This document shows positions 11,682 through 21,639 of a stretch of 46,070 nt of DNA, in pieces. A program made the translations under genes and the position numbers. Within the stretch, counting starts at the first letter, position 1; each line of letters opens with the position of its first letter. The stretch covers positions 1 to 46,070 of the forward strand of contig JACRMA010000029.1 of assembly GCA_016235085.1 (NCBI GenBank). The letters run 5' to 3'. Below the pieces are notes generated by a model. The model searched no databases. It saw nothing but the letters and a program-made list of their open reading frames with translations, and was not told the origin of the DNA. Origin of the DNA: Candidatus Zixiibacteriota bacterium. Its GTDB lineage: Bacteria; Zixibacteria; MSB-5A5; WJJR01.

Positions 11682-13151
11682 TCAGGTGCCGGGATTCGCC
11701 ACACCGGCTTTGCGGATGAACTCGACCGCTTGCTTCAGACGTTCGACACACTTGTCGCGTCCCAGAAGCTCGACGATATCAAAGACACCGGGGCCGGTGG
11801 TCATGCCGGTCAGTGCCAGACGCAATGGGTGAATCAGTTCGGCGGGGGAGCGTCCCAGTTGTTCGGCCAGCTTGCGAAGAACAGCTTCTGTCCCCGTCTT
11901 GGTGAAATCGGCGGCCGGGAGTTTGCCGAATTCGGTGGAGAGCAGGGTCAGATCCTCGGGAGCGCCCGGGCGATTGAAGTATTTCTTCGCTCCTTTTTCC
12001 TCGTAACTGAACTTGTCGGTGAAGTAGAAGGCACCCTGTTCGACAATGTCGTTGAGCAAACGAATCCGTTCGCGGAGCGTCTCGACCACGCGCAGCATCC
12101 ATGCCCAGTTGGTCTGAATATGGAGGCGCGTGACCAATCCCGATTCCATCAGCACCGGGGTCAGCCGCTCGAGCAGTTCGTTCGTGTTCATCTTGCGGAT
12201 ATACTCGCCGTTCATCCATTCCAGTTTTTGCATATCGAAAACCGGATTGGAGGGATTGACGCGTTCCAGCGTAAACGCCTCCACCAGTTCATCGCGTGTC
12301 ATGATCTCGCGTTCATCGCCGGGCGACCAGCCGAGTAAAGCGAGGAAGTTGACGATCGCCTCGGGGAGGAAACCCATCTGCTGATACTCGATGACCGAGG
12401 TGGCACCCTCGCGTTTGGAGATCTTGCGGCGGTCCTTGCCGAGATTCAAAGGCAGATGGGCAAAGAGCGGCGGTTCCACGCCGAGGGCGCGGTAGATCAA
12501 GACCTGTTTGAAGGTATTGGTGATGTGGTCATTGCCGCGGATCACATGGGAGATTTGCATGTCGTGATCGTCAATCACGCAGGCAAAGTTGTAGGTCGGG
12601 CGGCCGTCGGCGCGAGCGCAGACAAAGTCGTCTAGTTCGACGTTGGAACGCGTCAGCGCGCCGTATACCAGGTCCGTGTAGTGGGTCTCGCCTTCCGGAA
12701 TGCGTAGTCGGAGTGCCGGCTTGCGTCCCTCGGCTTCGTAGCGCGCACGATCGGCATCGCTGAGATTGCGGCAGTTGCCGTCGTAGCGGATCGGCTGTTT
12801 TTCCTGTTGGGCCTTCTCGCGCTTGGCGGCCAGTTCCTCCGGTGTGCAGTAGCAGAGGTACGCATGGCCGGAGTTCCGGAGTCGTTCGGTCCACTGCGTG
12901 TAGATCTCTCCCCGCTGCGACTGGAAGTATGGTCCCTCATCCCAATTGAGCCCCAACCATTTCATCGATTCCTGAATCGAGGTGACCATCTCGGCGAACG
13001 AGCGTTCCGGGTCGGTGTCCTCGATGCGCAAAATGAATTTGCCGCCATTATGGCGCGCGAAGAGCCAGTTGCAGATCCCGATCCGCGCGGTGCCAACGTG
13101 AAGATGGCCGGAGGGTGAGGGGGCGATACGGACACGAACAGGGGAGGTCAT
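11682..13151 (-). CDS. gltX: Glutamyl-tRNA synthetase
   Basis: This 489-residue class I synthetase charges tRNA(Glu) with glutamate in the cytoplasm. The HIGH-type motif reads HVGT at residues 18-21 within PSPSGHLHVGTAR, and KMSKS reads KISKR at 243-247. LRIEDTDPERS and the bacterial zinc-site cysteines (C100, C102, C127) are present. The C-terminal helical anticodon domain is complete, so this is bacterial-type GluRS rather than the archaeal/GlnRS-like form. This matters because GatDE, encoded at 18267-21639, needs Glu-tRNA(Gln) and so needs a GluRS able to charge tRNA(Gln). Whether this enzyme discriminates between tRNA(Glu) and tRNA(Gln) cannot be read from the sequence by eye. An AAAGGA site precedes the ATG. 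Confidence 0.96.
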   Translation of the reverse strand: MTSPVRVRIAPSPSGHLHVGTARIGICNWLFARHNGGKFILRIEDTDPERSFAEMVTSIQESMKWLGLNWDEGPYFQSQRGEIYTQWTERLRNSGHAYLCYCTPEELAAKREKAQQEKQPIRYDGNCRNLSDADRARYEAEGRKPALRLRIPEGETHYTDLVYGALTRSNVELDDFVCARADGRPTYNFACVIDDHDMQISHVIRGNDHITNTFKQVLIYRALGVEPPLFAHLPLNLGKDRRKISKREGATSVIEYQQMGFLPEAIVNFLALLGWSPGDEREIMTRDELVEAFTLERVNPSNPVFDMQKLEWMNGEYIRKMNTNELLERLTPVLMESGLVTRLHIQTNWAWMLRVVETLRERIRLLNDIVEQGAFYFTDKFSYEEKGAKKYFNRPGAPEDLTLLSTEFGKLPAADFTKTGTEAVLRKLAEQLGRSPAELIHPLRLALTGMTTGPGVFDIVELLGRDKCVERLKQAVEFIRKAGVANPGT

Positions 13152-13228
13152 TATCTGGCTGTCCTTTCAAAGTTCCGGTAGTACGGTTACCAGGCGGTTT
13201 CAGTTCAGCGGTCCGTCGGAGCTGCCGC

Positions 13229-13732
13229 TCATTCATACATCGAGCTGGGGGGGCGATTCTCCTGAACGCCGGGCGTCGGCTCTGGTTCCGAAGTTGGTGG
13301 CGGAGGTGAGGGGACGCGCATGACCGGGAGCGGCGTCTGCTCGCCGGGAGCGTGGGACGTGGGAACGACGGCCACGGTCGCCTGGACCATCTCCCACTCC
13401 AGTTCCAGTCCGCCCCAGAAACGGACGCTGAGATTGTAGAGCCAGCTTAAGAAGAATCCCATGATGGCCCCGCCGATGGCACCCATGAAACCGCCGAAAA
13501 CGGGAAAGAACATCGCGAGATTAACCATCGCGTCGCCCATAAATTCGCTCAACCCAGTCTGTCCCTGAAGGTCCAGTCCCGCGGGCAGGTCGCGGGTGAC
13601 CGACCAGATCAGTCCCATGAAGGCCCACTGGACCAATCCGAGCAGGAAGCCGGAGAATCCGCCCAGCAGGAAGAGGGTCTTGGTGGCCGAGAACACGCCG
13701 ATGCGTTTGATTTCGTAACGGGGCTTATCCAT
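13229..13732 (-). CDS. Small membrane protein, DUF3566-like
   Basis: The 167-residue protein starts MDKPRYEIKRIGVFSATKTL and has two long hydrophobic segments at about residues 20-45 (LFLLGGFSGFLLGLVQWAFMGL) and 70-105 (MVNLAMFFPVFGGFMGAIGGAIMGFFLSWLY). A proline-rich cytoplasmic or exported tail follows (VPSPPPPTSEPEPTP). The IKRIGVFSATK start and two-helix arrangement resemble DUF3566-type transmembrane domains; the function is unknown. GGAG nine bases before the ATG supports the start. It lies 77 bp upstream of gltX on the same strand. Confidence 0.75.
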   Translation of the reverse strand: MDKPRYEIKRIGVFSATKTLFLLGGFSGFLLGLVQWAFMGLIWSVTRDLPAGLDLQGQTGLSEFMGDAMVNLAMFFPVFGGFMGAIGGAIMGFFLSWLYNLSVRFWGGLELEWEMVQATVAVVPTSHAPGEQTPLPVMRVPSPPPPTSEPEPTPGVQENRPPSSMYE

Positions 13733-13938
13733 TAATCTGCTCCAGTGTCAAATGCCGGGTGGGTATTGCCATATCACAGGCGTACAGGGCCGGGAACGTG
13801 TCGTGCCGCGGGTAGCGAGGTCGGACAGGAGTGTCCGACCTACCGATGTGAAGCGCGTCGGCATGGCCAACGGTAATCGCCCTGCCCGCGATCAGCACAC
13901 ACTTACCTCTTCCAACATGACTGCCCATACGCTTGTCC
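13733..13938. other. Intergenic region with family D palindrome
   Basis: This 206-bp gap separates two minus-strand genes. Its only clear structure is a hairpin at 13819-13840: arm GGTCGGACA, loop GGAG, arm TGTCCGACC, followed by TACCGATGTG. A related hairpin with compensated arms lies at 27710-27731. Confidence 0.6.
13819..13840. repeat. Dispersed palindrome, family D (copy 1)
   Basis: Perfect 9-bp stem GGTCGGACA/TGTCCGACC with a GGAG loop. It is flanked by GCGA on the left and TACCGATGTG on the right; the 27710-27731 copy is followed by TACCGATATC. Confidence 0.85.
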
Positions 13939-14352
13939 TCATTCACCCATCGCCTTGATGATCACCCGTTTGGCGCGTTGTCCGTCAAACTCGGCGTAGT
14001 ATACGCGTTGCCATGGGCCCAGGTCGAGGCGGCCGGCGGTCACCGGCACAATTACCTGATGTCCCACCAGCAGGCTTTTGAGATGGGAATCGCCGTTGGT
14101 TTCGCCGGTTTCGTGGTGGCGGTAATCCTCCCGGTACGGGGCCAGTGATTCGAGCCAGACATCGATATCCGCCAACAGGCCGTTTTCGTGGTCATTGACC
14201 CAGACGCCGGCGGTGATGTGCATCGCGGAGACCAAGACCATTCCTTCGGTGATTCCCGACCGTTTCACGACCGCCGCCACCTCATCGGTGATGTCGTGAT
14301 ACTCCCGTTTGCGTCGGGTCTTAAAAGTGAGATACTCAGTCTGGGTTTTCAT
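13939..14352 (-). CDS. YjbQ / UPF0047 family protein
   Basis: The 137-residue protein matches the YjbQ (UPF0047) family over its whole length. It has the conserved [15 protein letters not shown] and [22 protein letters not shown] motifs, whose His and Glu residues cluster in a metal-binding pocket. It ends with [21 protein letters not shown]. Homologues have been reported to have weak thiamine-phosphate synthase activity, but the physiological role is unsettled. It is probably a cytoplasmic trimer. It stands alone, divergent from the PDZ gene. Confidence 0.93.
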
Positions 14353-14521
14353 GCAACACCTTCAAGACCAATCAATTGCCCCTGATGCCGGGCTTGTCAA
14401 CTGGTATCCGCGGCGGCATAAAGCGCCAATTCGAGTAAAACGGAACATACATGCCGGCTCAGGCGTAGAAAAATCTGCAAATGGAAGTAGGAAGTCAGGC
14501 ATCAACCGGGAGGACAAGGTC

Positions 14522-15448
14522 ATGAGACCCACGAGAAGTCTGGGGGGACGAATTCTGCTGGCGGTACTGGTGTGTACGCTGGCGGCCGCGGCTCTGGCAT
14601 GGGGCGCCCAGGGCGACAAAGAAAAAGTGAGAGTGATGAAGGACTCGCCGGCCAAGAAGGCGGGACTTCAGAAGGGCGATGTCATCCTGCAGTTTGACGG
14701 GCACAATGCCAAATCGGTGCGCAGCCTGACGGCCGACATCGAGGACTGCGAACCGGGTGAGTCCAAGACAATCGTGATTCAGCGTGATGGGGATAAGAAG
14801 ACGCTCAGTGTCGTCGTGGGCAAAGGCGAATCCGAGGACGAGTTCACCTGGACGGAAGATGTCACGCCTCCGCCTCCGGGCGTTCCGGACATGGGTGAGA
14901 TGAGGCTGCCGGATGCGCCGCGCGCGTTCGCGTTTTCGCTGGGCGAACTGTCCAATTCACGCATCGGCGTCTCCCTCTATGAATTGTCCGACCAGTTGGC
15001 CGACTATTTTGGCGCCAAGGACGGCGGCGCACTCATCAACGAAGTGATCGAGGATGGTCCCGCCGCCAAGGCCGGCCTAAAGGCAGGCGATGTGATCGTG
15101 CAGGTGGATCACAAATCGGTCAAGGATGTCAGCGCCGTACGGCGGGCGATTCAGAAGAAAGATGGCGGCGATGTTGCCACCGTGACTGTCCTGCGCCGGG
15201 GGAACGAAGAGAAGACGGTCGACGTGACGGTTGAGGAGTCGGAGTCCTGGTCGGGTGTCGGCGACAACCGTTTCTTCCGGGTGCAGCCGCGCAATGCCCA
15301 TCCGCTTCCGGGCGATCAGATGGCCCCTGCCATGCGCCGCGCCCAGCGTGCCATGCGCGACTCGAATTCGGATCTGCGCGAAGAAATGAAACAGCTTCGC
15401 GAAGAACTGAACCAATTGAAGAAAGAGCTTAGGGAGAAGGGGAACTAG
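14522..15448 (+). CDS. Secreted double-PDZ protein with C-terminal coiled coil
   Basis: ATG 14522 is preceded by GGGAGGACAAGGTC, which fixes the start; the product is 308 residues. A signal peptide (residues ~10-29, ILLAVLVCTLAAAALAWGA) is followed by a PDZ-like domain lacking its first strands (VRVMKDSPAKKAGLQKGDVI, to ~105) and a linker rich in Pro. A full HtrA-type PDZ domain follows at ~140-240 (RIGVSLYELSDQLADYFG, INEVIEDGPAAKAGLKAGDV). The last ~30 residues are a heptad coiled coil (LREEMKQLREELNQLKKEL). No protease domain is present. It may be a periplasmic peptide-binding adaptor. No partner is evident from the neighbours. Confidence 0.85.
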   Translation: MRPTRSLGGRILLAVLVCTLAAAALAWGAQGDKEKVRVMKDSPAKKAGLQKGDVILQFDGHNAKSVRSLTADIEDCEPGESKTIVIQRDGDKKTLSVVVGKGESEDEFTWTEDVTPPPPGVPDMGEMRLPDAPRAFAFSLGELSNSRIGVSLYELSDQLADYFGAKDGGALINEVIEDGPAAKAGLKAGDVIVQVDHKSVKDVSAVRRAIQKKDGGDVATVTVLRRGNEEKTVDVTVEESESWSGVGDNRFFRVQPRNAHPLPGDQMAPAMRRAQRAMRDSNSDLREEMKQLREELNQLKKELREKGN

Positions 15449-15454
15449 GGAAAC

Positions 15455-15550
15455 CGTCCCGCAGCAACGCGGGACAGATGTCAGCACTGGTGACGGCATT
15501 AACCGTCGCCAGATGAATCGAAGGCCGGACCCATGTGGGTCCGGCCTTCG
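15455..15550. terminator. Cluster of three hairpins after the PDZ gene (probable bidirectional terminator)
   Basis: Three hairpins lie in a row: GTCCCGC/GCGGGAC at about 15456-15475; TGGTGACGG/CCGTCGCCA at about 15488-15511; and a perfect 14-bp stem 15519-15532 with 15537-15550 around ATGT. They lie between the convergent PDZ and glnS genes. The T-run after the last stem is short (GCTGTTT), so intrinsic termination is likely but not certain. Confidence 0.6.
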
Positions 15551-15607
15551 CTGTTTGGGGCTGTGGGGGGTGCGAAGGTTGCGCCGGCGGCGGGTTATCG
15601 CTTTCGC

Positions 15608-15754
15608 GTAGGGGCGTATTGCATGCGCCCGTCTTCCATGTGCGGTAGGTGAACCGCTTTCCGGAGCCAATCGCGGAGAGATTCACCCTCGGACGTGTTC
15701 CCATACATGGATGGATTCTTGGCCGGGGTGACAGGGGCGTATGCAATACGCCCC
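15608..15754. repeat. Dispersed palindromes, family C (two copies)
   Basis: 15608-15630 reads GTAGGGGCGTATTGCATGCG followed by CCC. 15733-15754 reads AGGGGCGTATGCAATACGCC followed by CC. Each folds on GGGCGTAT/ATACGCCC or a near match. A third copy is at 21675-21699. They lie between the convergent PDZ and glnS genes; no gene is seen in the 320-bp gap. Confidence 0.8.
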
Positions 15755-15770
15755 GGGTGAAGGCGGATTT

Positions 15771-17513
15771 CTATTTCTGCGATTTCTGGACTTTTGCCCA
15801 GGTGTCGCGGAGGGAGACGGTGCGATTGAAGACCGGGTGACCCGGTTTCGAGTCGCCGGAGTCGACGCAGAAGTAGCGGTGCCTTAAGAACTGATAGCGA
15901 TCGCCGGCGGCGGCTTTCGCGAGACTTGGCTCGACTTTGCAGTCGGTCAGAGTCTCCAGCGAATTGGGAGTCAGATTCTGCCGGAAATCTTCGCCCTCCT
16001 CAGGGTCTTCCTTGGCGAAGAGATGGTCGTAGAGGCGAACCTCGGCGTCGATGGCGTGTTCAGCGGAAACCCAATGCAGGGTGCCTTTGATGACGCGGCC
16101 GTCGGGTGTGCCGCCGCCGCGTGACTCGGGGTCATAGGTGCAATGTACCTCGGTCACCTCGCCGGTCTTGTCGTCTTTGACGATATTCTGGCACGTGACG
16201 TAATAGGCGTGCTTGAGACGGACTTCCTTGCCGGGGGCGAGGCGGAAGAAACCCTTGGGGGGAGTTTCGTTGAAATCGTCACGCTCGATATAGATGACGC
16301 GCGAGAAGGGAATCTTGCGTGTGCCGCCGCTCGGGTCCTCGGGATTGTTGACGGCGTCGAATTCCTCGGTTTGCCCTTCGGGGTAATTGTCGATCACCAG
16401 CCGCAGTGGACGCAGCACCGCCATGACACGCGGGGCGCGCTTATTGAGATCTTCGCGCAGGCAATGCTCAAGCAATGCCACGCTGACCACGCTGTCGCGC
16501 TTGGCGACGCCGATTCGTTCGCAGAAGTCGCGAATCGATTCGGGGGTGTAGCCTCGGCGGCGCAGTCCGGCGAGTGTCGGCATGCGGGGATCATCCCAGC
16601 CGGAAACGACGCCTTCCTCCACCAGCGCCAGGAGTTTGCGCTTGCTCATCAGCGTGTAAGTCAGATTCAACCGCGCGAATTCGATCTGCTGTGGATGGTA
16701 GACCCCAAGCTGGTCGAGATACCAGTCGTAGAGCGGCCTGTGATCCTCGAATTCCAGGGTGCAGATCGAGTGCGTGATGCGCTCGATGGAATCGGAGACA
16801 CAGTGCGCGTAGTCGTACATCGGGTAAATGCACCACTGGTCGCCGGTCATGTGATGCGCTTCATGTTTGATGCGGTAGATCACCGGGTCGCGCAGGTTCA
16901 CATTGCCGGAGGACATGTCGATCTTGGCGCGGAGCACACGGGAGCCGTCGGGAAATTCTCCGGCCCGCATGCGGTGGAACAAGTCGAGATTTTCCGCGAT
17001 CGGGCGGTTGCGGTGCGGGCTCTCGCGTCCGGGATCCTTGAGCGTGCCGCGATGCTCGCGGATTTCGTCGGCGCTCAGGTCGTCGACATACGCTTTGCCG
17101 TCGTTGATAAGCTGCACCGCGAAATCGTAGAACTTGCCAAAGTAATCGGAGGCGTGGAAAAGTTTGTCGCCCCAGTCGAATCCGAGCCAGCGAACGTCAC
17201 GTTTGATCGCCTCGGTGTATTCAACGTCTTCTTTGCTGGGATTGGTGTCGTCGAAACGCAAGTGGGTGGTGCCGTTGTGCTCGGCCGCGATGCCAAAATT
17301 CAGGCAGATCGATTTGGCGTGCCCGATGTGGAGATAACCGTTGGGCTCGGGCGGGAAGCGCGTCACCACGCGACCATCCCACTTGTTCGTGGCCAGATCA
17401 TCTTTGACGATGTCGCGAATGAAGTTTGAAACCGGTGCGGTTTCAACAGATGCCGGTTCAGACGCCGGCAGGTTTTTTCGTTCGGGCTCGGATTTGTCGG
17501 TCTTCATGAACAT
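15771..17513 (-). CDS. glnS: Glutaminyl-tRNA synthetase
   Basis: This 580-residue class I synthetase attaches glutamine directly to tRNA(Gln). HIGH is at residues 62-65 within [15 protein letters not shown], and the KMSKS loop reads LMSKRKL at 288-294. The GlnRS-specific [17 protein letters not shown] and [17 protein letters not shown] segments are present, followed by the two-beta-barrel anticodon domain ([27 protein letters not shown]). The enzyme looks complete and functional, including the C-terminal YFCVDS...[11 protein letters not shown]. It is divergent from gatE, separated by a 750-bp repeat-rich region. Having GlnRS beside an intact amidotransferase for the same tRNA is unusual. Confidence 0.97.
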
Positions 17514-18266: not shown

Positions 18267-20264
18267 GTGGCCATCGGGCGGGATATGCAACAGGGAATGA
18301 CACCGGGCGATAATCTGAAGCGGACGCGGGAACTGGTTGGATATGTTCCCCGTTCGCTGGCCACACAGCAGACATACCAGGCGCTCGGCTTCAAGTCGGG
18401 CCTGGAAATCCACCAGCAGCTTTTGACCAAGGCCAAGTTGTTCTGCCGTTGTCCGGCGGGGCGATACCAGGGGCCGGCCGAGTACGACGCCGAGCTGGTC
18501 CGGCACATGCGTCCGACGCTCAGCGAAATGGGCGAATACGACGGCACCGCGCTGATGGAACGCAAGACGAAGAAGAACATCATCTACCGGATCAAGAACG
18601 AGACGGCCTGCACGTACGAAGTCGACGACACCCCGCCATTCCCGATCAACCGTGAGGCGCTGGGCATCGCGGTGAGGATCGCGCTGATGCTCAAGCTGAA
18701 CATTGTCGGCGAGTTGCACATCACGAGAAAGCAATACCTCGATGGCAGCATCCCGACCGGATTTCAGCGCACCGCGATCGTCGGAATCGAGGGGACGATT
18801 CCCCTCACGACCGGACCGGTGCGGATTATTCAACTTTCGATTGAGGAAGATGCCTGCCGCGAGGTGTCGGATTCGGGGCACTGGCGGATATACAGGACCG
18901 ACCGGCTGGGGATGCCGCTGATTGAAACAGTGACCTATCCCGATATGAAGACACCCGACGCGGTCGCCGAGGCGGCACATTATCTGCGATTCCTCAATCG
19001 CAGCTCCGGGCTGGTGCGGACCGGCATCGGTGCGGCCCGTGAGGATGTGAACGTCAGCATCACGGGTGGGACGCGTGTCGAGATCAAGGGGGTCGCGCAC
19101 ATCCGCTGGATACCCGAGCTGGTGCACAACGAGGCATTCCGGCAAAAGGCACTGCTCACGATTAAGAGTATCCTTGCGGAGCGCATTCCCAAGCCGGACG
19201 CCTGGAACGTCGCTGCTTCCGAAGTGGACGCGAGTGGACTTAAGACAGACTATGCACCGATTCTCCACGCGCGGCAACTGGGACAACGGATCGTGGCTGT
19301 CACGCTGCCAAAGTTTGCCGGCCTGATGTCGTTCTTCACGCAGCCGGGACATATCTTTGCCGATGAACTCGCCGGACGACTCAAGGTCATTGCCTGCCTC
19401 GAGCGGCCGAATATGCTGCACTCTGAAGAACTCGAGCCGGCCGAGCGCGCGGCCTTCGCGGACTGCGTGTCGTCGGCTTCCAGCAGTGACGATGCCGTTG
19501 TTATCGTTTGGGGGCCGCCCGAAGATGTGACCACGGCGATTGAGACGATTGAAGAACGCTGCCGGATGGCGATGGCGATGGGTGTGCCCAACGAGACGCG
19601 CAAGTCGCTGCCGGATGGGACAACAATCTTCGAACGCGTGCTGCCGGGACCGGATCGCATGTATCCCGACACCGACTCGGCGCCGATCCCGATCGAGCAG
19701 GACGTGGTTGATGCGTGCGGGCTCGATTTGCCTGCATCGGTTGAAGACCAGATGGCGCAACTGGGCGAGTGGCGGATTCCGCGCGACACGTACCACTATC
19801 TTCTCAAGCGCCGGTTGGTGGAGTTGATCGGACGCATTGCCGCCGACTTCAAATGCCGCCCCAGATTTGTCGGCACGTTATTGGGACACACGTTGAAGCA
19901 CGTCGAGGGGAAATTCGGGGCAGCGCAGAAGTTCGAGCCTGAACGCATCTATGAACTGTTCGCGTTTGCTGCCGGGCGAAAGCTCGACTGGGCGATAATG
20001 CCGGGTCTTCTGACGACCGCGTATCAATTTCCGGCGATGCCCTTCGAGTCTGTCCTGACCGCGGTGGGATATACGCCGATTTCTGCGGAGCGAATCGCAG
20101 AGAGAGTCGCGACGCTGCAGGAGGAGTTCGAGCGAATTCGGACGTCGCCGGATCCTGGGGCGCGGGCGCGCTGGATTATGGGGCAGTTGCGTCCCGATGC
20201 GTTGGGCAATATGCCGTTGCCGGCGTTGCGATCGATGATCGAGAGTGTGGCCGCGCATGTCTGA
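18267..20264 (+). CDS. gatE: Archaeal-type Glu-tRNA(Gln) amidotransferase subunit E
   Basis: This ~665-residue protein belongs to the GatB/GatE kinase-amidotransferase family, which phosphorylates Glu-tRNA(Gln) and amidates it with ammonia from GatD. The N-terminal core is clear: GLEIHQQLLTKAKLFCRCP at 45-63, YEVDDTPPFPINREALGIA, QLSIEEDACREVSD, RLGMPLIETVTYPDM and EDVNVSITGG. It is GatE, not GatB, because an AspRS-like GAD insertion occupies about 330-470 (KFAGLMSFFTQPGHIFADEL, LKVIACLERPNMLHSEEL). Overall length is also near archaeal GatE (about 620) rather than GatB (about 480). A YqeY-like tail closes it. Its end overlaps gatD by 8 bp. GTG 18267, ATG 18285 and ATG 18297 are possible starts; none has a strong ribosome-binding site. 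Confidence 0.95.
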   Translation: MAIGRDMQQGMTPGDNLKRTRELVGYVPRSLATQQTYQALGFKSGLEIHQQLLTKAKLFCRCPAGRYQGPAEYDAELVRHMRPTLSEMGEYDGTALMERKTKKNIIYRIKNETACTYEVDDTPPFPINREALGIAVRIALMLKLNIVGELHITRKQYLDGSIPTGFQRTAIVGIEGTIPLTTGPVRIIQLSIEEDACREVSDSGHWRIYRTDRLGMPLIETVTYPDMKTPDAVAEAAHYLRFLNRSSGLVRTGIGAAREDVNVSITGGTRVEIKGVAHIRWIPELVHNEAFRQKALLTIKSILAERIPKPDAWNVAASEVDASGLKTDYAPILHARQLGQRIVAVTLPKFAGLMSFFTQPGHIFADELAGRLKVIACLERPNMLHSEELEPAERAAFADCVSSASSSDDAVVIVWGPPEDVTTAIETIEERCRMAMAMGVPNETRKSLPDGTTIFERVLPGPDRMYPDTDSAPIPIEQDVVDACGLDLPASVEDQMAQLGEWRIPRDTYHYLLKRRLVELIGRIAADFKCRPRFVGTLLGHTLKHVEGKFGAAQKFEPERIYELFAFAAGRKLDWAIMPGLLTTAYQFPAMPFESVLTAVGYTPISAERIAERVATLQEEFERIRTSPDPGARARWIMGQLRPDALGNMPLPALRSMIESVAAHV

Positions 20265-21639
20265 GACGCTCAAAGGGTACAAGGGTGACGGGCTCGCTGT
20301 CCTGGAGAAATTCCATGTGCGGATCTGGAGCGACGCGGTGGTCCAGACCACGCGCGGGGAGTTCAAGGGGATCATCCTGCCGCGCTCGGAGAACGACGAT
20401 GACCGTCATGTCGTGCTGAAGCTGATCACGGGATACAACGTCGGCATTGCCAGTGAAACGATTCTCGACATCAAGGAAATCGGCTACAAGGAAGCGCACT
20501 ACAAAATTCCCGAGAAGGAATTCCCCGTCTCGCCGGGCAAACCCAATGTCAAGCTGTTGGGAACCGGCGGCACGATCGCGTCACGGCTGGATTATCGCAC
20601 CGGCGCGGTGATCCCGGCGTTTTCACCCGGGGAACTCTACGGCGCAGTGCCGGAGCTGGCCGAGATCTGCAATCTGAGCACCGAGAAGTTGTTCGCAGTC
20701 TTCAGCGAGAACATGGGGCCGGAGCAGTACATCACGCTGTCCAAGGCGATTGCGCGCGAAATCGAGAATGGTATCGATGGGATTGTGATCGGGCATGGGA
20801 CCGACACGATGCACCACACGGCGTCGGCGCTCAATTTCATGCTGCAAAATTCGCCGGTGCCGGTTGTGATTGTCGGTTCGCAGCGCTCCTCCGACCGGCC
20901 ATCATCGGATGCCGCCTTGAATCTGATTCACGCCACCAAGACGGCGGCGGAGTCGGACATCGCTGAAGTTATGGTGTGTATGTTCGGACCGACGTCCGAT
21001 GAGTACGGGCTTTTGCATCTCGGGACGCGGGTGCGCAAGATGCACTCATCGTATCGCTCGACCTTCCGCACAATTGGTGACATTCCCATCGCGATGGTCA
21101 GCCGCAACGCGATCACGCCACTTAAAGACACTTACAATCGCCGCCGCAAGGACCGCAAGGTCACGCTGCTGCCGTATTTCGACGAGCGCGTGGCCATGGT
21201 GTACTACTACCCGAACATGCACCGCGACATGATTGACTCGCTGATCGACAACGGTTACCGGGGGATTATCATCGCCGGCACCGGGCTGGGGCACATCAAC
21301 AAGCCGGTCTATCCCGCGATTCGCCGCGCCGCCGCCGAAGGGGTTGCGGTCTTCATGACGGTCCAGACGCTCTGGGGATACGTGCACATGTCGGTCTATG
21401 ACACCGGCCGCGACCTGATGGCGATGGGGATTATCCCGCTGGCGAACATGCTCCCGGAAGTCGCTTATATCAAGCTCGGATGGGCGTTAGGGCAGACCGA
21501 CGATATCGCGAGGGTCAAAGAGCTGATGCTGACGCCGGTGTGCGGCGAGATCACCGACCGTGAGCCGTACAACGGCTACCTCATCTTCCAGGGCGGAATC
21601 CCCGAAGTCGAAGAGTTCTTGCGGAAGTATCATAAGTAG
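20257..21639 (+). CDS. gatD: Archaeal-type Glu-tRNA(Gln) amidotransferase subunit D
   Basis: The 460-residue product is the asparaginase-like glutaminase of GatDE; it releases ammonia from glutamine for GatE. An N-terminal beta domain of ~95 residues (VRIWSDAVVQTTRGEFKGII) precedes the asparaginase fold, which distinguishes GatD from free L-asparaginases. Catalytic residues are all present: T106 in GTGGTIAS, T182 and D183 in GHGTDTMHHTASAL, and K261 in TRVRKMHSSY, at spacings close to those known for archaeal GatD. The start ATG 20257 lies within the end of gatE (ATGTCTGA overlap), so the subunits are probably made together. The family is described as archaeal; this copy lies among clearly bacterial genes. 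Confidence 0.96.
   Translation: MSETLKGYKGDGLAVLEKFHVRIWSDAVVQTTRGEFKGIILPRSENDDDRHVVLKLITGYNVGIASETILDIKEIGYKEAHYKIPEKEFPVSPGKPNVKLLGTGGTIASRLDYRTGAVIPAFSPGELYGAVPELAEICNLSTEKLFAVFSENMGPEQYITLSKAIAREIENGIDGIVIGHGTDTMHHTASALNFMLQNSPVPVVIVGSQRSSDRPSSDAALNLIHATKTAAESDIAEVMVCMFGPTSDEYGLLHLGTRVRKMHSSYRSTFRTIGDIPIAMVSRNAITPLKDTYNRRRKDRKVTLLPYFDERVAMVYYYPNMHRDMIDSLIDNGYRGIIIAGTGLGHINKPVYPAIRRAAAEGVAVFMTVQTLWGYVHMSVYDTGRDLMAMGIIPLANMLPEVAYIKLGWALGQTDDIARVKELMLTPVCGEITDREPYNGYLIFQGGIPEVEEFLRKYHK

Follow-up and report, generated by a model that had tools for sequence, protein, structure and literature searches.

The window, a 46,070-nucleotide stretch of a Zixibacterial genome, carries two overlapping forward-strand genes that encode the two subunits of a GatDE amidotransferase. 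Specifically, gatE (18267..20264) encodes a 665-residue transamidase/kinase and tRNA-binding subunit and begins at a GTG codon, its exact start being uncertain; gatD (20257..21639) encodes the glutaminase subunit and begins at an ATG, with a GTG at 20245 as another possible start. Counted from the ATG at 20257, the two genes overlap by 8 bp (20257-20264), as the earlier note on this DNA had stated. On the reverse strand, the divergent neighbour of gatE is glnS (15771..17513), which encodes a canonical glutaminyl-tRNA synthetase (GlnRS), followed by gltX (11682..13151), which encodes a bacterial GluRS with the Pfam domains tRNA-synt_1c and Anticodon_2, the only GluRS of the genome and a candidate source of Glu-tRNAGln. 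This arrangement of gltX and glnS close together on one strand beside gatED (11682-17513) recurs in part: the proximity of gltX and glnS is seen elsewhere in Zixibacteria, for example in G026-G029, and gatED adjoins glnS only in this genus among the genomes compared.

In profile searches, the window GatE scores 386 bits against TIGR00134, above the curated cut-off of 319.6, and 453.8 bits against NF003107, just under the cut-off of 456, and GatB models give at most 109 bits. The NF003107 match extends to model position 623 of 630, and the TIGR00134 alignment stops at position 514 of 622. The best PDB matches are the archaeal GatE chains 2d6f and 1zq1. An insertion missing in GatB (19164..19587, forward strand, residues ~300-440) appears as a gap in the GatB alignment, with query residues 293-464 set against GatB residues 234-271, that is, ~170 residues versus 37. 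The earlier note had called this a GAD insertion; the insertion relative to GatB and the fit of the predicted model to solved GatE uphold that reading, but a Pfam search found no match of the GAD model to the window GatE. Foldseek returned weak AspRS matches for this GAD/AspRS-like region. The AlphaFold model of GatE (mean pLDDT 85.5, pTM 0.84) has solved GatE as its best structural match, with a TM-score of 0.77-0.82 depending on the target. Additionally, the C-terminal helical and YqeY-like tail region (19698..20261, forward strand, residues ~478-665) is confidently all-helical in the model, and its sequence diverges from archaeal tails. At 79 GatE positions, conservation exceeds 90% among the archaeal rows and among the bacterial rows alike. 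Taken together, the score above the curated cut-off, the insertion and the helical/tail region identify the protein as GatE, and a GatB-rooted tree groups it with GatE.

The window GatD scores 500.7 bits against TIGR02153 (cut-off 324) and 504.8 bits against NF003217 (cut-off 310). Its Pfam domains are PF18195 (GatD_N, the GatD-specific N-terminal domain), PF00710 and PF17763. Among solved structures it is closest to the archaeal GatDE entries 2d6f and 1zq1, at 398 bits, and ordinary asparaginases reach at most 135 bits. The catalytic residues are T106, T182, D183 and K261 when numbered from the ATG, or T110, T186, D187 and K265 from the upstream GTG; this T/T/D/K tetrad, reported as intact in the earlier note, is invariant in every alignment row with a letter at these positions (82-84 of 85 GatD rows). 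Elsewhere in the survey, the GatD genes of G083:C15 (L023) and G045:C156 each carry one in-frame TGA, which in G083 falls at a Cys position of the sister genome G082 (AETMV*MFG versus AETMVCMFG); an error, a pseudogene and recoding are the candidate explanations. The profile scores, the PDB comparison and the GatB-rooted GatE tree set the pair apart from GatB and ordinary asparaginase, and its genes are gatE and gatD rather than a gatB with gatA and gatC partners, as in GatCAB. The matches to GatE and GatD models, with archaeal GatDE structures as the best relatives, bear out a complete, intact GatDE pair on a bacterial chromosome.

In G001, a second and independent assembly of the genus, 11 consecutive genes around gatED are found in unchanged order, so the pair occupies the same locus elsewhere in the lineage and the locus is not a chimera. 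GC content is flat over gatED, which also speaks against a chimeric join. The proteins of the two genomes are 91% (GatE) and 99% (GatD) identical. Comparing the two genomes gives a dN/dS of 0.098 (gatE) and 0.026 (gatD), next to 0.007-0.041 in four genes nearby; selection on both gatE and gatD is thus purifying. The invariant tetrad, the predicted fold and the dN/dS values together support the suggestion that the pair is apparently functional. A GatE-GatD fusion in G001 (a 1172-aa frame) was considered and rejected, its extra length being only an open frame antisense to glnS.

GatDE has been called exclusively archaeal, still in 2022 reviews, and GlnRS has been called absent from archaea (PMC9499178, PMC8762117, PMC8007984). 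The earlier note's description of GatDE as archaea-specific agrees with these reviews (PMC9499178, PMC8762117) but not with the genomes, in which the pair is common both among Zixibacteria and across many further bacterial phyla. Among 133 Zixibacteria genomes, GatD occurs in 80, GatE in 82 and either one in 84, and GatDE is found in ~20 other bacterial phyla. When GTDB genomes were scanned with the GatE alignment, at least 572 relatives came up. Nearly all of the best 80 are bacterial, mostly with gatD adjacent, and they come from Planctomycetota, Aminicenantes, Ignavibacteria, Bacteroidota, Acidobacteriota, Myxococcota, Krumholzibacteriota, Fermentibacteria, KSB1, WOR-3, Cloacimonadota, Nitrospinota, Gemmatimonadota and others. 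A plasmid search for GatE yielded only a partial Natrinema GatE. A literature search, mostly of openly accessible papers, found no mention of a bacterial GatDE, though an earlier report may exist.

A GatE tree of 83 rows has one clade (support 100) made up of 50 bacterial rows and five from Thermoplasmatota MAGs; the 28 canonical archaeal rows lie outside it, across a long branch. When rooted on 14 GatB sequences, bacterial-type GatE and the canonical archaeal GatE sampled (Thermoplasmatota, Methanothermobacter and Pyrococcus) are sister clades, with supports of 98 and 97. The window locus is one of several hundred cases and is ordinary within the bacterial GatDE clade. Specifically, the window GatE nests with Zixibacteria family f7, a Bacteroidales and a Cloacimonadota MAG (support 100), and the GatE of G130, from the same family as the window genome, falls with those of Acidobacteriota. 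The window GluRS, in contrast, is placed among those of its own order, so the gatED pair has probably spread horizontally among bacteria.

The window GlnRS scores 743.6 bits against TIGR00440 and conserves the Gln-specificity motifs of E. coli GlnRS. The earlier note, correct about the pair itself, overlooked both this neighbour and the co-occurrence of GatDE with GlnRS. Among the 84 Zixibacteria genomes that are at least 90% complete, 56 carry GatDE and GlnRS, 3 GatDE only, 11 GlnRS only and 14 neither, although most genomes in the survey are MAGs and gene absences are therefore uncertain. GlnRS is thus present in 56 of 59 near-complete carriers of GatDE. With one genome per genus, the same classes number 42, 3, 9 and 6 (Fisher p = 0.005, uncorrected for phylogeny). 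The survey gave no association of GatDE with GatB, which about half of the GatDE genomes carry; in the window genome a GatB fragment lies separately on contig C101. AsnRS was found in 77 of 79 high-quality genomes. Additionally, of 50 GatE-bearing genomes picked from the scan, nearly all of them non-Zixibacterial, 38 carry GlnRS, 26 of those without GatB, and the single-contig chromosome of an Ignavibacteria member (CP054675.1) encodes GlnRS with GatE/GatD and without GatB. Five of these 50 genomes lack both GlnRS and GatB, as does the Zixibacterial G123 (94% complete); the GatDE genomes without either also include G134, G152, G158, G165 and the archaeon G179. The archaeal role of GatDE supposes a carrier without GlnRS, and here glnS adjoins gatE; GlnRS absence is a property of carrier genomes, outside the enzyme definition of GatDE.

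At the GluRS position that matches Thermus R358, all Zixibacterial enzymes examined have Arg, even those of GlnRS-less genomes, so the discrimination of GluRS cannot be read from it. The single-contig Zixibacterial genome G118 encodes two GluRS (G118:C1, 1515583-1517004 and 2815047-2816462), one of them ~1.6 kb from gatE; a dedicated GluRS beside gatE was rejected in this case, as the copies are 87% identical and the gatE-proximal copy is not in an operon with gatE.

The two tRNAGln genes of the window genome, one UUG and one CUG, each have a U1-A72 pair. In archaea, GatDE is reported to touch tRNAGln at the D-loop and at the A1:U72 pair, and the latter feature is missing here. The cradle segment of GatE is fixed as RKQYLDGSIP in the bacterial type and as RKIVIDGSNT in canonical archaeal GatE; GatB, too, carries Tyr and Pro where the bacterial type does. 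The QY/IP residues were considered as an adaptation to U1-A72 and rejected as such: the archaeon G196 combines the bacterial-type segment with A1-U72 tRNAGln, so the segment does not track the 1:72 pair.

The window enzyme resembles archaeal GatDE (2D6F, 1ZQ1) in having both subunits encoded by adjacent genes, the four GatD catalytic residues, GatD_N, and the catalytic domain, insertion and helical/tail region of GatE, but the bacterial type forms its own sister clade with fixed residues of its own. In archaea, GatDE makes up for the lack of GlnRS, whereas the bacterial type usually coexists with GlnRS, and the window glnS product is a normal member of the canonical bacterial family. A bacterial parallel is GatCAB, also a tRNA-dependent amidotransferase retained alongside a direct synthetase: Deinococcus, Thermus and Bdellovibrio keep it beside GlnRS and AsnRS, and there it serves Asn synthesis (PMC4206432). 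GatDE, by contrast, is known for Gln alone. GatCAB is also encoded by genes of its own, with the amidase GatA in place of GatD.

Intact genes, family, conserved catalytic residues, fold, selection, clade and co-occurrence with GlnRS are seen directly in the data, and we infer the substrate, activity and corrective role of bacterial GatDE. Since a canonical GlnRS is present in the same cell, GatDE is most likely a second or corrective route. We consider it reasonably probable that the window encodes a functional GatDE of a distinct bacterial clade, acting as a second or corrective Glu-tRNAGln amidotransferase beside GlnRS and as the sole route in a few genomes. In this scheme, an incompletely discriminating GluRS would make Glu-tRNAGln and GatDE would convert it: GatD would free ammonia from glutamine or asparagine, and GatE would bind Glu-tRNAGln, phosphorylate the glutamate with ATP and amidate the activated glutamate to Gln-tRNAGln. 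In the few genomes without both GlnRS and GatCAB, GatDE would be the sole route. Among the points against this explanation, the GatDE reaction looks redundant in most carriers given their GlnRS, and the window tRNAGln has U1-A72 rather than the archaeal A1:U72.

The coexistence with GlnRS would also be accounted for if the bacterial clade had kept GatDE chemistry and been repurposed for another substrate, either another misacylated tRNA or a non-tRNA glutamyl group. The co-occurrence of GatDE with GlnRS in place of a replacement, the divergent tRNA-binding tail beyond the end of the TIGR00134 alignment, and the clade-specific fixed cradle residues are consistent with such a change. However, the catalytic residues and many other GatE residues are common to archaeal GatE and the bacterial clade, carriers without GlnRS and GatB must obtain their Gln-tRNA from GatDE, provided that their assemblies are complete, and a role in Asn synthesis is disfavoured by the nearly universal AsnRS. 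We therefore hold repurposing to be possible but unlikely. A recent horizontal import of ordinary archaeal GatDE into this bacterium is more doubtful by a good measure. Archaeal sequences underlie the family models, and the closest solved structures come from archaea, but the window GatE sits in a bacterial subclade inside a multi-phylum clade, a long branch away from canonical archaeal GatE. The isolated case or recent archaeal acquisition implicit in the earlier note does not stand against this wide bacterial spread, although the archaeal sampling is mostly of one phylum and would still allow an ancient transfer. An assembly chimera, contamination or a decaying passenger gene, which might be suspected in a 142-contig MAG, is hardly credible, being refuted by the eleven-gene synteny, flat GC, purifying selection and phylum-wide presence.

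Bacterial-type GatE also occurs in Thermoplasmatota. In the MAG G196, gatD is adjacent to gatE, and a GlnRS gene lies between tRNAGln-CUG and tRNAGln-UUG, both A1-U72 (L293, G196:C6 40001-55814; locus 11838-13743, reverse strand). This GlnRS scores 744.6 bits against TIGR00440 and is 63% identical to that of the window and 58% to that of E. coli. Its contig also carries an archaeal-type tRNA-intron endonuclease and NucS, with a composition that fits the bin. The G196 GlnRS runs against the claim of GlnRS-free archaea, as a provisional finding from one MAG. In the MAG G179 (L116), bacterial-type GatE was found and neither GlnRS nor GatB was detected; judging from gene content, GatE is likely the only route to Gln-tRNAGln there. 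G202 and G211 each have two GatE copies with differing scores, possibly one canonical and one of bacterial type. G197 and G206, considered as further archaea with bacterial-type GatE, were rejected because their genes read as canonical archaeal.

A deep bacterial GatDE clade that coexists with GlnRS contradicts the published archaea-only statements (PMC9499178, PMC8762117). It follows from this clade that GatE and GatD are no longer valid as archaeal markers in MAG contamination checks. According to reviews, archaea lack GlnRS because GatDE and tRNAGln co-evolved, and bacteria with both GatDE and GlnRS make that account testable, through why both routes are kept and whether GatDE is corrective. 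The clade also bears on whether GatDE predates the archaea-bacteria split. More tentatively, GatDE may be functionally tied to GlnRS, as a partner that repairs or channels Glu-mischarged tRNAGln, and the combination of GlnRS with GatDE may have crossed domains, including into a Thermoplasmatota archaeon. If this were true, GatDE would be a bacterial quality-control enzyme, and the rule that archaea do not charge tRNAGln directly would come to an end.
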